From NCBI GenBank assembly GCA_019911785.1, contig JAIOJM010000309.1, positions 1 through 5,322 on the forward strand: DNA of 5,322 nucleotides, given 5' to 3'. Positions 2-5,160 of the stretch are shown piece after piece. Both the position numbers and the translations under genes were made by a program. The DNA is from Sulfuricella sp. Lineage in GTDB: Bacteria > Pseudomonadota > Gammaproteobacteria > Burkholderiales > Sulfuricellaceae. Positions within the stretch are counted from its first letter, which is position 1, and each line of letters begins with the position of its first letter. Below the pieces are notes generated by a model, which was given only the letters and a program-made list of their open reading frames with translations, had not been told where the DNA came from and made no database searches.

Positions 2-397
2 ATGAATTCACGTTTCATGCGCATGACCAGCCGCTTGCTGATCGCCAGCGTTTTGGGCCTTGGCCTGCCGCTCCAGTCGGCTTATGCCGGGCTGGTGGGA
101 ACGGACAAGGTGGCCGTATCCGCTCAGTCCCAATCCGAGCGCGAGCGGATTCGTTCCTTCCTTGACCGTGAAGACGTGCGCAACGAATTGCAGGCTCAGG
201 GGATCGACGTCAACACCGCCAAAGCGCGTGTGGATGCACTGACCGACGAAGAGGTGCAGAAGGTTGCGGGCAAGCTGGACAAGATGCCCGCCGGTGGTGA
301 AATTATCGGGATTCTGTTCACCATTTTCATTGTCCTGCTGGTGACGGACATTCTGGGCTTTACCAAGGTGTTTCCGTTTACGCGCTCGGTCAAGTAA
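2..397 (+). CDS. PA2779-family small exported membrane protein (131 aa)
   Basis: The function is uncharacterised; I recognise the family by its overall layout and by its position next to a PA2778-family peptidase. Residues 1-29 form a signal peptide: basic residues at 4, 7 and 11, a hydrophobic core at 12-24, and a probable cleavage site AYA|G after A29. Residues 30-95 are polar and probably helical. Residues 80-90 (LTDEEVQKVAG) and Gly98-Gly99 resemble double-glycine leader motifs. Residues 101-118 are a membrane segment, followed by a conserved-looking aromatic tail with R128 and K131 at the end. The mature part is therefore predicted in the periplasm, anchored by its C-terminus. The ATG lies at the very edge of the window, so promoter and ribosome binding site are not visible; M6 or M8 are possible alternative starts. 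The next gene begins 9 bases downstream. Family call fairly sure; role inferred only. Confidence 0.85.
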   Translation: MNSRFMRMTSRLLIASVLGLGLPLQSAYAGLVGTDKVAVSAQSQSERERIRSFLDREDVRNELQAQGIDVNTAKARVDALTDEEVQKVAGKLDKMPAGGEIIGILFTIFIVLLVTDILGFTKVFPFTRSVK

Positions 398-406
398 CTT
401 CAAACC

Positions 407-1357
407 ATGTTGTTTCAAGTCTGCGCCCGCTTGATTGCGGGCGTTTTCTTTTTGATCTGGCTGGGCGGCTGCGCCACGCCGCAGACGCAGTCCCTGCTCA
501 AGACGAGCTCCAGGCAGCTGCCGCAGCAGGTGGAACTCAGCAAGGTACCGTTCTATCCCCAGGAGACCCACCAGTGTGGCCCGGCATCGCTCGCCATGGC
601 GCTTAATGCGGGGGGTGCCAAAGTGGCGCCGCAGGACCTGACCCCGCAAGTGTACCTGCCGGGGCTCGCGGGCAGCCTGCAAGTCGAGATGCTGGCCGCC
701 ACGCGGCGCAATGGCCTGCTGGCCTATGAGCTGGCGCCGAAGCTGGACGATTTGCTGGCGGAAGTGGCTGCCGGGTCGCCGGTGGTCGTGCTGCAAAACC
801 TCGCACTGAGCTGGTATCCGGTGTGGCATTACGCGGTGGTGGTGGGTTACGACCTCAAGCGCGAGGAAATCATCCTGCGCTCCGGCCTGGAGCAGCGGCA
901 GGTGCTGCCTTTCACGACATTCGAGCATACCTGGGAGCGCGCCGGCTACTGGGCCATGCTTGCGCTGCCGCCGGGCAGGATGCCCCGCACCGCGACTGAA
1001 GCTGCCTACGTTGCCGCGGCAGTGGCTCTGGAAAAGGTCGCCCCACCGAAAAGCGCCGAAGCCGCCTATGAAGCCGCGCTCAAACGCTGGCCGCGCAATC
1101 TTTCAGCCCGCATCGGCCTGGGCAATGCGGCCTACGCCCAAGGCGACTGGAAGCGCGCCGAAAAAGCTTACCTGCAGGCCATGCTGGATCATCCGAAGTC
1201 CGCCATTGCCTACAACAACCTTGCCCAAGCGCTGGCCGAGCAAGAGCGTTATCCCGAAGCACTGGATTTGGCAAATCAGGCTGTCCTCCTGGGTGGTCCG
1301 GAGCAGGACGCAGCCAGGAATACCCTGGATCAGATCAGAAAGAAAATGCGGAAGTAA
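407..1357 (+). CDS. PA2778-family C39-like cysteine peptidase, lipoprotein with TPR repeats (316 aa)
   Basis: Predicted lipid-anchored periplasmic cysteine peptidase. The signal peptide covers residues 1-21 (R8, hydrophobic core 9-19) and ends in the lipobox LGGC with Cys22 as the lipidated residue. Ala at +2 favours outer-membrane sorting under the Lol rule. The papain-like C39-type domain spans about 44-190. The catalytic Cys57 sits in QCGPASLAM, Gln52 is the likely oxyanion residue, and His141 lies in WHYAVVVGYD, with D149 nearby. After a linker, two to three TPR-like helical pairs fill about 215-298 (for example around N231-P263 and K264-G297), probably for protein binding. No clear Shine-Dalgarno precedes the ATG, which follows the upstream stop by 9 bases; translational coupling is plausible. 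This start is kept because only it yields a complete signal peptide. Codons 6-16 overlap an intrinsic terminator. C39 domains usually cut after Gly-Gly, and the upstream protein offers such a site. Natural substrate unproven. Confidence 0.88.
   Translation: MLFQVCARLIAGVFFLIWLGGCATPQTQSLLKTSSRQLPQQVELSKVPFYPQETHQCGPASLAMALNAGGAKVAPQDLTPQVYLPGLAGSLQVEMLAATRRNGLLAYELAPKLDDLLAEVAAGSPVVVLQNLALSWYPVWHYAVVVGYDLKREEIILRSGLEQRQVLPFTTFEHTWERAGYWAMLALPPGRMPRTATEAAYVAAAVALEKVAPPKSAEAAYEAALKRWPRNLSARIGLGNAAYAQGDWKRAEKAYLQAMLDHPKSAIAYNNLAQALAEQERYPEALDLANQAVLLGGPEQDAARNTLDQIRKKMRK
424..453 (+). terminator. Intrinsic terminator inside the start of the peptidase gene
   Basis: A perfect 7-bp stem, CGCCCGC (424-430) and GCGGGCG (437-443), encloses the loop TTGATT and is followed directly by TTTTCTTTTT (444-453). 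This is a textbook Rho-independent terminator for transcripts coming from the upstream small gene, 27 bases past its stop codon. It lies wholly within the coding sequence of the downstream lipoprotein, at about codons 6-16, where the T-tract encodes the Phe/Leu core of the signal peptide. It may be a true terminator that reduces expression of the second gene, or an attenuator that a ribosome initiating at 407 would melt. Chance formation is less likely given the clean stem and U-tract. Confidence 0.7.
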
Positions 1358-1367
1358 GCTCCAGGCT

Positions 1368-3029
1368 TCAGGACGGTTTGCGCTGGAACAGCCAATGCCG
1401 CTCCAATTTGTCTCCGGGCCGGTTGCCTTCCCAGATTTTGTGCCATTCCGGGCCGGGAGGCGCTTCCGGGTCCCTGGCGCGGCCCTGCACCAGCAGCAGA
1501 TCACACTCTATCCCCCGGTGGGTTTCCGTGCGTCGGGTAAGGATGCCGGCGTAGTACTCCAGCAGGGCACGCTGCGGCTCGCCCAGTTTGCTGCTGGAAA
1601 TGCAGTCGTGGCGAGCGGGCAAGGCTTGCTGCAGGGAGGCGATCATGGAACGGTAGCTCTTGCCGGCATCGAGCCAGGGCAGCCACACTGTCATCATGAT
1701 CACCCACACCAGCGTGATGCCGGCCGCCGAGTTGAGCACGGCGCGCGGATTGCGGGGCAGGGATCTCGCCCAGAAAATGATGAACAGCCAGGCCAGGGTG
1801 GCCAACAGCGCGATGGCAAAGTGCAGCGGTTCGAACGCCGGGATGTAACCCGGCTGCAATCGTTGCAGGTGCTCTGCCCGGGCGGCAGGATGGCCGGAGA
1901 TCATGGCGAACCAGAAGAACCAGAACACGCCGGCGATAAAGCCGAAGGTCATGATGCTGAACCAGTTCAGCGCGCTGGCCGCGCCGCGCCGTATGGTGTT
2001 GACGCCGGGTGCGGCCAGCAGCGAGAGGGGCAGCAGCATCGGCAGGGCATAGAGCTCGCGCGCGTCGGAAGCCAGGCTGAATACCCCCAGCATCACCAGG
2101 AAGGCGGTGAGGGCAAGCTGAATCCCGGCTTGCCCGAAGACGGTGCGCCGTCCCTGCCACAGCGTCCACAGCGCAATCGGCAGCGCCGGCCAGGCGAACC
2201 AGGGCAGGGTTTTTAAATAATACCAGTGATCGCTGTCGGGGCCGAGTTTGGCAAATCCGAGGAACCGCCCCAGGTTGTTGATCCAGAGCCATTCCCTGAA
2301 CAGCTCCGGCGAGCGCAGATAAAGCAGGGTCGGCCAAATGGTCAGCCATGGCACCGCCGCCAGGAAGGCGATAGCAAGGCACAGCACGTAATCCCGGCTG
2401 CGCCAGTGGCGGAATACGAGCGGCAACAGCAGGGCCGTCAGCCCAATTATCCCGGGGGCGATCAGTCCCTTGGACATGAAACCGATACCGGTTCCCGTGC
2501 CGAGCCAGAAACCTGCCAGTGCGAATCTCCTGCGACTCAGCGCCAGGCCGTAGATGGCCATGGCGAAGCCGGCCAGCAAGGCGGTGTCGGTGATCATTTC
2601 ATGGCCACGGATCAGCAGCCCCAGGCAGCCGATCAGGATCAGCACGGCGAGGCGGCCATGGCCCTTGCCCCACAGTTCCCTGCCGGTCAGCCCGGTGAGC
2701 AGCAGCGCGATCGCCATGAAAAAGCCGGTGGTCAGGCGCGCTGCGTCATGCAGGGGAAGCGCGAAGGAGAATATTTTCCCGAATAGCGCCGCAGTGAGGT
2801 AATACAGCGGCGGCTTCTCCATGAAAGGCTCGCCGCCCAGGGTCGGTACGATCCAGTCGCCGCTTTGGAGAATATGGTATATCAGCCCGAAGCTGTAAGC
2901 TTCATCGGGTTTCCATGGCTGGTGGCCGATCAGGCCGGGCAGTATCCAGGCTAGGCAGAGCGCGGCAAGCAGGAACAAGGTTGAACGCGTGCTGAAATAG
3001 GTAATGTCTGTGGGTTGGCTCATTGCCAT
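1368..3029 (-). CDS. ArnT/PMT-type glycosyltransferase, GT39/GT83-like integral membrane protein (553 aa)
   Basis: Predicted inner-membrane transferase that moves a sugar from a polyprenyl-phosphate donor to an acceptor on the periplasmic side, as ArnT does for lipid A. The N-terminal membrane segment (about 17-35) is followed by the acidic pair D42-E43 in KPDEAY, the family's catalytic-loop signature. Then comes EKPPLYY (71-77), typical of ArnT-like proteins. Later parts include a SDAREL-YALP stretch resembling the conserved RxxYxLP region. In total 10-12 hydrophobic segments fill residues 17-440, followed by a soluble periplasmic tail of about 100 residues, close to the usual ArnT size. Donor and acceptor cannot be told; no arn, LPS or polyprenyl-sugar genes are nearby. 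The start could be the ATG at 3029 or the one two codons later (3023); a purine-rich AGAGA lies upstream within a short repeat. A weak -10-like TAAAAT (3069-3074) may drive it. It converges on the peptidase gene with 10 bases between stop codons. Confidence 0.85.
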   Translation of the reverse strand: MAMSQPTDITYFSTRSTLFLLAALCLAWILPGLIGHQPWKPDEAYSFGLIYHILQSGDWIVPTLGGEPFMEKPPLYYLTAALFGKIFSFALPLHDAARLTTGFFMAIALLLTGLTGRELWGKGHGRLAVLILIGCLGLLIRGHEMITDTALLAGFAMAIYGLALSRRRFALAGFWLGTGTGIGFMSKGLIAPGIIGLTALLLPLVFRHWRSRDYVLCLAIAFLAAVPWLTIWPTLLYLRSPELFREWLWINNLGRFLGFAKLGPDSDHWYYLKTLPWFAWPALPIALWTLWQGRRTVFGQAGIQLALTAFLVMLGVFSLASDARELYALPMLLPLSLLAAPGVNTIRRGAASALNWFSIMTFGFIAGVFWFFWFAMISGHPAARAEHLQRLQPGYIPAFEPLHFAIALLATLAWLFIIFWARSLPRNPRAVLNSAAGITLVWVIMMTVWLPWLDAGKSYRSMIASLQQALPARHDCISSSKLGEPQRALLEYYAGILTRRTETHRGIECDLLLVQGRARDPEAPPGPEWHKIWEGNRPGDKLERHWLFQRKPS

Positions 3030-3140: not shown

Positions 3141-3344
3141 TTACTTCATGCCGTATTTCTGGCGGAACTTCTCGACGCGGCCGGCGGTGTCGACGATCTT
3201 CTGCTTGCCGGTGTAGAACGGGTGGCACATCGAGCAGACTTCAATGCCCAGCGATTTGTTCATGGTCGAACGAGTCTTGAACTTTTCGCCGCAGCTGCAA
3301 GTCACTTCGATTTCGTTATATTCTGGGTGAATTTCCGGTTTCAT
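3141..3344 (-). CDS. rpmE: 50S ribosomal protein L31, zinc-binding type (67 aa)
   Basis: Ribosomal protein L31 of the large subunit, which bridges the two subunits at the central protuberance. It opens with the typical [11 protein letters not shown]. Four cysteines, C16, C18, C37 and C40 (CSC and CSMC), form the zinc site, marking the C+ or zinc-containing paralogue rather than the zinc-free YkgM/RpmE2 type. HPFYTGKQK (41-49) and [10 protein letters not shown] (56-65) are family hallmarks, and the length is normal. A good Shine-Dalgarno AAGGA (3353-3357) lies 8 bases before the ATG. It sits 96 bases downstream of rho, with its own strong promoter after the rho stop and a clear terminator behind it, so it can be expressed separately from rho. 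The hairpin in its 5'UTR suggests possible feedback by L31. Confidence 0.97.
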
Positions 3345-3352
3345 GGCTTAAA

Positions 3353-3357
3353 TCCTT
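3353..3357 (-). promoter_or_regulatory. Ribosome binding site of rpmE
   Basis: AAGGA on the minus strand, 8 bases before the rpmE ATG. It is the strongest Shine-Dalgarno in the window and directly follows a predicted hairpin, so folding of the leader could affect its access. Confidence 0.75.
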
Positions 3358-3358
3358 G

Positions 3359-3389
3359 GAATCTGGCGGCTTTTTTTAGGGCCGAATTC
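3359..3389 (-). promoter_or_regulatory. Hairpin in the rpmE 5'UTR, possible L31 leader
   Basis: On the minus strand the outer pairs GAAT (3386-3389) and ATTC (3359-3362) and the inner pairs CGGC (3381-3384) and GCCG (3367-3370) enclose the loop CCTAAAAAAA. There is a small internal loop of T against CCAG. The structure ends one base before the AAGGA ribosome binding site. Autoregulatory leaders are known for L31 genes in other bacteria, but I cannot match this one to a described class. Modest stability; a hypothesis. Confidence 0.35.
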
Positions 3390-3402
3390 TTAAAAAAGAG
3401 GG

Positions 3403-3431
3403 ATTATCCTCTAAAAAATGGGCTTTATCAA
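3403..3431 (-). promoter_or_regulatory. Sigma70-type promoter of rpmE
   Basis: On the minus strand TTGATA (-35, 3426-3431; five of six consensus bases) and GATAAT (-10, 3403-3408; five of six) are separated by exactly 17 bases. The -35 box starts 10 bases after the rho stop codon. Transcription would begin near 3396-3390, giving a 5'UTR of about 45-50 bases. This is the best promoter in the window and suits a highly expressed ribosomal protein gene that must outpace rho. Confidence 0.75.
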
Positions 3432-3440
3432 GTCCGGCTG

Positions 3441-4697
3441 TCACCGGCGCATCGAATCGAAAAAGTCCGCGTTGTTCTTGGTTGCCTTGATCTTGTCGAT
3501 CAGAAACTCTGTTGCCTCCAGATCGTCCATCGGGTAGAGCAGTTTACGCAGCACCCAGATTTTTTGCAGGATGTCGGGTTTGATCAGCAATTCTTCCTTG
3601 CGCGTGCCGGAGCGGTTGACGTTGATCGCCGGATACAGGCGCTTCTCCGCCATCTTGCGATCCATGTGGATTTCCATGTTGCCGGTGCCCTTGAATTCCT
3701 CGTAGATCACGTCGTCCATGCGCGAGCCGGTATCCACCAGCGCGGTGGCGATGATGGTGAGCGAACCGCCTTCCTCGATGTTGCGCGCCGCGCCGAAGAA
3801 GCGCTTCGGGCGTTGCAAGGCGTTGGCGTCCACGCCGCCGGTGAGCACCTTGCCGGAAGACGGTACCACGGTGTTGTAGGCGCGCGCCAGGCGGGTGATG
3901 GAGTCGAGCAGGATGACCACGTCCTTTTTGTGCTCCACCAGGCGCTTGGCTTTTTCCATCACCATTTCGGCGACCTGGACGTGGCGCGTGGCGGGTTCGT
4001 CGAAGGTGGAGGAAACCACCTCGCCGCGCACCGAGCGCTGCATTTCCGTCACTTCTTCCGGGCGCTCGTCGATCAGCAGCACGATCAGGTAGCATTCCGG
4101 GTGGTTGGCCGCGATGGAGTGGGCGATATGCTGCAGCATCACGGTCTTGCCGGATTTCGGCGAGGCCACCAGCAGACCGCGCTGGCCCTTGCCGATCGGC
4201 GCGACCATGTCGATGACGCGGCCGGTGATGTTCTCTTCCGCCTTGATATCGCGTTCCAGGATCATCGGCTGATTCGGGAACAGCGGCGTCAGGTTCTCGA
4301 ACAGGATCTTGTGCTTGGAGTTCTCCGGCGGTTCGCCGTTGACATTGTCCACCTTGACCAGTGCGAAATAGCGCTCCCCTTCCTTGGGAGTGCGGATCTC
4401 ACCCTCGATCGAATCGCCGGTGTGCAGGTTGAAGCGGCGAATCTGCGAAGGGCTGACGTAAATGTCGTCCGGCCCGGCCAGATAGGAGGTGTCGGGCGAA
4501 CGGAGGAAGCCGAAACCGTCCGGCAGGACTTCCAGCGTGCCTTCGCCATAAATGCTTTCGCCTTTCTTGGCCTGATTCTTGAGCAAGGCAAAAATCAGAT
4601 CCTGCTTGCGCAGGCGGCTGGCACCCTCAATTTCATTGGTGATGGCCATTTCCACCAGTTCGGTGACGGGGAGGTGTTTTAAGTCGGATAAGCGCAT
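3441..4697 (-). CDS. rho: Transcription termination factor Rho (418 aa)
   Basis: Hexameric RNA-dependent ATPase/helicase that loads on C-rich nascent RNA and ends transcription. The N-terminal Rho_N helical domain is at about 1-47. The cold-shock-like primary RNA-binding domain is at about 50-125, with GFGFLR at 61-66 and Y80. The RecA-type ATPase core follows: Walker A ASPKSGKT at 178-185 with K184, DERPEEV at 210-216 containing the catalytic E211, Walker B VVILLD ending at D265, and the Q-loop around 278-290. These fall at the same numbers as in E. coli Rho, so the gene is full length and intact. The MRLSDLK start fits the family, but no Shine-Dalgarno precedes it; the bases before the ATG are pyrimidine-rich, so initiation may depend on S1 or another mechanism. 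It lies downstream of trxA with a 136-base gap that contains a hairpin and a rut-like leader, pointing to autoregulation. Confidence 0.98.
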
Positions 4698-4787
4698 GGC
4701 GGTAGGATAGGATGAATCAGAAGAAAAGGTGGATCAAAGGTAGTGCAAGATGGATCTGGAAGTTCAGAGTGCGGCGGGAAGAAGCTT
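4698..4787 (-). promoter_or_regulatory. C-rich, G-poor rho leader, candidate rut site for Rho autoregulation
   Basis: The 90 bases before the rho ATG contain, on the transcribed strand, 35 C and only 9 G by my count (39% against 10%). There are many pyrimidine-C steps and no strong hairpin. This is the composition expected of a Rho utilisation site. E. coli rho is autoregulated by Rho-dependent attenuation in its own leader, so the same logic is plausible here. There is no ATG or GTG on this strand in the segment, so an ATG- or GTG-started leader peptide within it is excluded. I saw no convincing rho promoter here. Confidence 0.55.
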
Positions 4788-4820
4788 GCGCCTGAGCCCG
4801 AGGAACGGGCAGTCAGGCGC
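4788..4820 (-). terminator. Strong hairpin after trxA, weak or Rho-assisted terminator
   Basis: On the minus strand GCGCCTGA (4813-4820) pairs perfectly with TCAGGCGC (4788-4795). Inside this, GCCCG (4806-4810) pairs with CGGGC (4796-4800) around the loop TTCCT, with CT bulged on one side. It begins 13 bases after the trxA stop. The following bases are AAGCTTCTTCCC rather than a U-run, so it is not a clean intrinsic terminator. It could protect the trxA mRNA 3' end or pause polymerase before the rut-like leader. Confidence 0.5.
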
Positions 4821-4833
4821 TAGGTTATCGGCT

Positions 4834-5160
4834 TTAGATATTGCTGTCAATGAATGCGGTCAGCTGGGACTTGGACAGGGCACCGACCTTGGTGGCTTCG
4901 ATGTTGCCGTTCTTGAAAATCATCAGGGTAGGAATGCCGCGGATGCCGAATTTTGGCGGCGTGGCCTGGTTTTCGTCGATGTTGAGCTTGGCGACCTTGA
5001 GGCGCCCGGCGTATTCCTGCGCCACTTCGTCAAGAACCGGGGCGATCATCTTGCACGGGCCGCACCAGTCCGCCCAGTAGTCAACCAGCACGGGCAATGG
5101 GGATTGCAGGACTTCCTGCTCGAAGGTGTCGTCGGTGACGTAATGGATATGCTCGCTCAT
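4834..5160 (-). CDS. trxA: Thioredoxin 1 (108 aa)
   Basis: Small cytoplasmic protein disulfide reductase, reduced by thioredoxin reductase, that serves ribonucleotide reductase, PAPS/methionine sulfoxide reductases and general thiol repair. The active site WCGPC holds C33 and C36. D27 is the buried Asp, P41 follows in the active-site helix, and the cis-proline P77 lies in GIPTLMIF. Length and fold order match E. coli TrxA. There is no signal peptide. A GGAG ribosome binding site (5170-5173) lies 9 bases before the ATG. It is the first gene of the trxA-rho-rpmE block, an arrangement common in proteobacteria. The 162 bases upstream hold short repeats but no convincing promoter by eye. Intact and ordinary. 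Confidence 0.98.

Follow-up and report, generated by a model that had tools for sequence, protein, structure and literature searches.

What two adjoining genes do together, when both belong to families that are named after loci and have no assigned function (NF033919 and NF033920), is the question raised by this locus, and in particular whether the second gene encodes a peptidase which cuts the product of the first. The window, i.e. the whole stretch of 5,322 nucleotides that was analysed, is a 5.3 kb contig on which ORF 2-397 (+) and ORF 407-1357 (+) adjoin at a distance of nine bases (Table 1). Scoring 134.7 bits against NF033919 (curated cut-off 40; 107 bits against PF20332) and 350 bits against NF033920 (curated cut-off 150; 45.1 bits against PF13529), respectively, the two products are members of these families; the close relatives of the small protein stem from Sulfuricella and Gallionella. 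An earlier note on this DNA had proposed that the exported, lipid-anchored peptidase cuts its neighbour behind a double glycine, and the residues it pointed to (LTDEEVQKVAG, Gly98-Gly99, Cys57 and His141) were all found where it had placed them.

Table 1. Features of the gene pair, with positions in the window
Feature	Position	Strand	Basis
Small exported protein, proposed substrate	2..397	+	131 aa; PA2779 family (DUF6627)
Signal peptide, residues 1-29	2..88	+	AYA/G cut, by inspection of the sequence
Helix 80-93 (LTDEEVQKVAGKLD), S/T-x-x-E cap	239..280	+	sequence conservation; helix 82-93 in low-confidence model
P96-A97-G98-G99, proposed cleavage motif at the membrane edge	287..298	+	conservation in 196 and 48 sequences
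Hydrophobic membrane segment, residues 100-120	299..361	+	sequence; helix 100-118 in low-confidence model
Conserved tail, residues 115-131 (TDILGFTKVFPFTRSVK)	344..394	+	residue conservation, 48 copies
C39-like cysteine peptidase lipoprotein, C-terminal TPR	407..1357	+	316 aa; PA2778 family
Lipobox Cys22	470..472	+	76/76 sequences
Gln52, presumed oxyanion residue	560..562	+	75/76 sequences
Catalytic Cys57	575..577	+	76/76 sequences; lost in 34/35 relatives read without neighbouring PA2779
Catalytic His141	827..829	+	76/76 sequences
Ser159, at the usual C39 Asp place	881..883	+	76/76 sequences
TPR domain, residues 196-316	992..1354	+	PF13432 and others; solved TPR domains align to 196-316

A literature search, with subscription papers mostly outside it, found no study on the function or pairing of PA2778/PA2779. 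PA2779 has been mentioned as the hypothetical neighbour of PA2780 (bswR) (PMC3985676), PA2778 is listed among genes whose start codon is changed in one clone (PMC3697988), and a P. stutzeri PA2779-family gene is among 26 candidate promoters taken from RNA-seq, its promoter matching in strength the gentamicin-gene promoter that served as reference (PMC10155442). The product may therefore be abundant enough for direct detection. No conserved third gene was evident in the neighbourhoods inspected, which was an unsystematic look. In the window, the remaining genes are an ArnT-like glycosyltransferase gene (1368-3029, -), scoring 75.8 bits against a curated cut-off of 567 for the aminoarabinose family, and ordinary housekeeping genes for ribosomal protein L31, Rho and thioredoxin (3141-5160, -), while Rfam gives zero matches over the window at the gathering threshold. 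A phage or defence origin of the pair was considered and rejected: PADLOC finds none, PHROGs gives only a weak endolysin match to the C39 part (E 3.6e-5), and a single phage record matches peptidase residues 216-305, which belong to the TPR part (5e-5).

The candidate cleavage site can be delimited by conservation. In the window, Gly98-Gly99 (bases 293-298) stands immediately before the hydrophobic stretch, and at the other end of the protein A27 and A29 are nearly invariant (62 sequences); in the two structure alignments, 62 out of 84 and 57 out of 73 available references were included, the window protein among them. A scan of genome contigs with LL[VI]TDILGF and a domain peptide as baits gave an alignment of 88 proteins in which P96 and A97 are invariant, Gly98 is found in 83/88 and Gly99 in 77/88. 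Because the tail peptide served as a bait, tail conservation is inflated in this set, and therefore a second set of 48 copies, which is the one to trust, was built by profile search of 397 genomes from the phylum of Sulfuricella sp. T08, which we take to be Pseudomonadota. Residues 96-99 are the best-conserved stretch there, with a mean pairwise column identity of 0.77 vs 0.38 for the domain 46-95, and the motif reads PAGG in 21, PAGA in 18, NAGA in 3, PAAG in 2, PVGE in 2, PAGQ in 1 and PTGE in 1 of the 48 copies, so that Gly99 gives way to Ala in 21 copies, to Glu in 3 and to Gln in 1. Among 196 unique sequences the counts are PAGG 116, PAGA 61, PAAG 7 and others 12 (NAGA 3, PAGQ 2, PVGE 2, and PAGS, PTGE, PVGG, PVAG and AAGG one each). 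The suggested conservation of Gly98-Gly99 at the membrane border thus holds for its position in the sequences collected and fails for its invariance, as the second Gly varies. The conserved element is P-A-G-[G/A] at the membrane border, Pro-Ala-Gly followed by a mostly small residue, rather than Gly-Gly; where residue 99 is Glu or Gln (5/196), a cut after residue 98 would be the simpler reading. The structure model of the small protein (pLDDT 62.5, pTM 0.27) was too weak for a structure search and puts residues 94-99, with low confidence, in a coil between helices; solved relatives were discarded, as the best match (E 0.077) was taken as chance.

The stretch upstream of the site had been likened to the LSxxELxxIxGG pattern of bacteriocin-type double-glycine leaders. 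LTDEEVQKVAG spans residues 80-90, the codon of L80 starting at base 239, and is conserved without being strictly invariant (E84 in 192/196, T/S81 in 185/196 sequences); the conserved Thr/Ser81-x-x-Glu84 could equally well be a helix cap. In the register of LTDEEVQKVAGK, a leader would need Gly at both 90 and 91, where the window has GK, and as a double glycine occurs at this place in 0/196 sequences, the comparison with bacteriocin leaders fails. The site of the small protein, moreover, is at residue 98 of 131 and behind a signal peptide rather than in an N-terminal leader.

The neighbour has the features of an exported peptidase. Its structure model has a pLDDT of 93.0, and the conserved Cys and His with an upstream Gln that characterize C39-like enzymes (PF13529) are in place. 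Pfam reports C39_2 and TPR-type models only, so that the earlier remark that no ABC transporter is attached is borne out by the absence of a transporter domain match in the peptidase. The structure search was dominated by TPR chains, with 3erv as the one C39-like chain among the matches listed. C39 peptidases usually carry an Asp as third catalytic residue; here Ser159 is invariant where the Asp is expected from sequence, and a residue other than Ser159 could serve in the third catalytic role. By the Lol rule, the residue at lipobox position +2 sets the sorting of lipoproteins to the inner or outer membrane. As this residue is mostly Ala (114 of the 142 sequences read, of 150), outer-membrane sorting is suggested, away from an inner-membrane site.

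In each of two surveys, small protein and full-length peptidase turned up together in one and the same set of genomes. Of the 397 genomes from the phylum, 46 have a small protein that scores over the cut-off, and these same 46 have a full-length peptidase; it is encoded just downstream on the same strand for 48/48 small-protein copies, with a match-to-match gap of 105-206 bases. A further 8 of the 397 genomes have only a divergent C39 relative (E 1e-20), and in one (G364) the small protein falls below the cut-off. In the bacterial family of genome G237, 121 of 198 genomes have the small protein, and the full-length peptidase (E below 1e-90, a dividing line that we set) is present in exactly those 121; 25 further genomes possess a short, divergent C39 relative alone and in no case the small protein, and 52 have neither. 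Peptidase matches over the cut-off are present in 47/397 and 128/198 genomes; those in excess of the 46 and the 121 are short forms such as that of G219. Only the best 6-20 candidates per genome were scored, and therefore absences rest on those candidates; the counts are uncorrected for kinship. As intact peptidases were mostly fetched for a nearby PA2779, there is less bias in the genome surveys. Copy numbers are uneven: genomes selected because they have orphan or tandem copies of the small protein (2-4 in all) show exactly one peptidase match in 11/11 cases, each with its own adjacent small protein, and 20 of the 121 genomes mentioned above carry a second small protein by our count, with one full-length peptidase each.

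Relatives of the peptidase without the small protein in the locus provide a comparison. Cys57 is lost, with Ser or Gly instead, in 34 of the 35 that were read (27 in a first and 7 in a second reading); 17 of them come from genomes in which the small protein was not found (residues were read in 17 of the 25 genomes with only the short form) and 17 are second copies in genomes with an intact pair elsewhere (read in 17 of 17). His141 is also lost in 32 of the 34 and kept in 2; in L169 the alignment has a gap at this place, which by eye is Arg. The earlier note had reckoned with catalytic residues that might often be missing, which is not so where the neighbour is present: Cys and His are kept in 174/174 readable unique proteins. 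The 203 unique domain sequences above 120 bits comprise these 174, 27 with neither residue nor neighbour, and 2 fragments of one stop-interrupted gene (L103), which are outside the 174. This gene (L103/L137) is split by one in-frame TAG, and its genome, G117, has a second pair. The TPR part is covered by the profile in 148/150 intact proteins vs 0/27 of the Cys-less ones measured.

A tree was built from 65 intact and 27 Cys-less sequences, 92 in all; the latter nest inside the former, with 3 changes to Cys-less, at least 2 of them on starred branches and each with the neighbour absent. With only 2-3 independent losses, a sign test gives no significance for the association (p 0.5). The one relative that keeps Cys and His in a genome without a small protein over the cut-off is L175 (3656-4657, +; genome G106), which scores 77.5 bits against the family cut-off of 150, has the TPR before the C39 part and carries Asp at the Ser159 place; the 120-bit floor leaves it, and one TPR-only fragment, out of tree and residue tally. 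We take it as a different C39 protein, yet it is the sole case against a strict rule. The short forms (L168-L174, L235-L254, L319-L325) are C39-like lipoproteins of mostly 225-285 aa with Cys replaced by Ser/Gly and usually His by Arg/Gln; they are apparently the descendants of dead enzymes, still kept in many genomes, and are possibly binding proteins.

The part behind the motif deserves separate consideration. A short tail with basic residues had been described, and the basic end is present (TRSVK in the window), but the tail is more than basic: Asp116 and Thr121 occur in 48/48 copies, Gly103 and Phe126 in 47/48, and its conservation is 0.57 vs 0.38 for the domain that would be released (48 copies). 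This conservation is odd and seems more than a mere, discarded anchor would need. By eye, 16/196 sequences have other tail forms, namely 17-22 plain hydrophobic residues or a short, WYYWVK-like end; one (L114) of the 17 tails sorted as "other" proved to be of the main type. Plain hydrophobic tails (PAGG...TDFIIILL...AILL) belong to second PA2779-type genes away from the peptidase gene (L281-L286, L294), and the WYYWVK-like end to PA2779 copies directly beside the peptidase (L186-L190), in genomes whose other PA2779 copies have the usual TDILG tail. Common to all tail forms are the P-A-G site and the helical domain.

A comparison with known processing systems shows resemblances to several. According to PMC5557850, the C39 domains with which bacteriocin ABC exporters are equipped cleave at GG and in some cases at GA; PA2778 shares their Cys-His core and differs in being periplasmic, in being without a transporter and in a proposed site at the C-terminal membrane border. 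PMC10318531 describes C39_2 peptidases as near relatives of C39 that can occur in the vicinity of transporter genes. FapD of the Pseudomonas amyloid system is a periplasmic C39 peptidase with an essential catalytic Cys whose target is suspected to carry GG or GA (PMC5557850). PA2778 is likewise an exported C39-type peptidase outside an ABC transporter; unlike FapD, which belongs to an amyloid operon, it is a lipoprotein with TPR and has one constant neighbour. The window genes downstream of the peptidase are unrelated to an amyloid operon, the upstream side lying outside the window. LapG is periplasmic as well and belongs to a Pfam family other than C39, and in contrast to PA2778 it has large adhesin targets and depends on calcium; the peptidase gives zero Pfam match to the LapG family, BTLCP, at E 1e-3. 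In PMC6890996, a LapG-type cysteine protease is sensitive to a four-residue motif of small residues, PAAG in FrhA.

The likeness to rhombosortase and its GlyGly-CTERM targets, also raised in the earlier note, holds for the layout, as PA2779 has a signal peptide, a Gly motif, a membrane segment and a basic end (the latter missing in some family members with other tails), and does not extend to the enzyme or to a portable tail. Rhombosortase is an intramembrane protease of the rhomboid family, whereas PA2778 is a C39-like periplasmic lipoprotein. Where a genome has a single target, the dedicated rhombosortase gene mostly adjoins it, and elsewhere one enzyme has several targets (PMC3237569); PA2778, by contrast, is still beside one proposed target in the 11 multi-copy genomes examined. 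Unlike GlyGly-CTERM proteins, the proposed PA2779 targets found are homologous over their full length and have a strongly conserved tail. A portable tag of this kind was rejected, since two tail profiles found no unrelated carrier below E 1e-3 in 16 genomes; the matches below this value are known PA2779 copies, and the best other one (E 0.0013) is a 712-codon frame.

As small protein and peptidase come and go together in the sampled genomes, the peptidase most likely cuts its neighbour, but an inhibitor or a cofactor would yield the same co-occurrence as a substrate. The small protein might be a partner (tether, positioner or activator) of a peptidase whose real target is elsewhere in the envelope; an obligate cofactor would account equally well for co-occurrence, adjacency and joint loss, and the conserved tail (D116, T121, F126) suggests contacts beyond a cut site. 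We nevertheless consider such a partner unlikely, with up to four divergent small proteins per peptidase, some with different tails, and a best-conserved stretch that is a short, coil-like motif of small residues. Exported proteases can also be kept in check by inhibitors such as staphostatins, and a built-in inhibitor whose PAG[G/A] stretch fills the active site would be expected alongside every active enzyme, while a dead enzyme could do without it. Except for the distant L175, the relatives follow this pattern, and small residues would also suit a narrow active-site groove. On the other side, no other substrate is apparent, and several inhibitors per enzyme, some encoded far off, are less expected, so that we hold this to be rather improbable. 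The several divergent small proteins per enzyme thus argue mildly against cofactor and inhibitor alike. The variation of Gly99 would suit co-inherited neighbours without a direct biochemical link, with Pro-Ala-Gly ahead of the membrane helix plausibly serving just as a flexible hinge or as a break at membrane entry, yet co-occurrence holds also where extra copies lie apart, and the catalytic Cys is absent in each family lineage without the neighbour; we give this explanation very little credence.

The many-to-one copies, the coil at the border and the joint decay of active site, TPR and neighbour are best fitted by an enzyme and its substrate, and the two genes probably form a dedicated module in which a periplasmic peptidase releases or sorts a membrane-anchored small protein. 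The small protein would be exported via its signal peptide and held in the inner membrane by the C-terminal hydrophobic segment; the lipid-anchored peptidase, with its TPR domain holding the substrate, would cut the exposed P-A-G-[G/A] link between periplasmic helical domain and membrane segment after residue 98 or 99; a domain of about 70 residues would thereby be set free in the periplasm, and a peptide of about 32 would stay in the membrane. Cleavage itself, its place, the membrane concerned and the role of the released parts are here what we infer rather than what was observed. The position of residues 96-99 speaks for a substrate, as this predicted link borders the hydrophobic segment and is most conserved while the part that follows varies in form, and FapD is a precedent for a C39 peptidase in the periplasm with an essential Cys; L175, the variable Gly99, the conserved tail, Ser at the usual Asp place and Ala at lipobox +2 speak against it. 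Of the original protease-substrate idea, the catalytic residues, the co-occurrence, the position of the site and the absence of the TPR part from 27/27 Cys-less forms stand, and the analogy to double-glycine leaders has to be given up.

It is conceivable, if improbable, that the enzyme is a papain-fold sorting enzyme, which would form an acyl-enzyme at P-A-G-[G/A] and transfer the domain to an envelope amine instead of water; it would then be a Gram-negative sortase analogue that uses a C39 fold and serves 1-4 dedicated substrates in each genome, the conserved membrane peptide of about 32 residues being the second product. With the peptidase cutting its neighbour as the preferred reading, two widespread families without assigned function can be joined in a single protease-substrate hypothesis that is open to test and names its cut site, and the family relatives that have lost the catalytic Cys in the absence of the neighbour are a natural control for it. 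If this is true, a C39-type enzyme would join sortase, exosortase, rhombosortase and myxosortase in processing proteins at a motif beside a C-terminal membrane segment.
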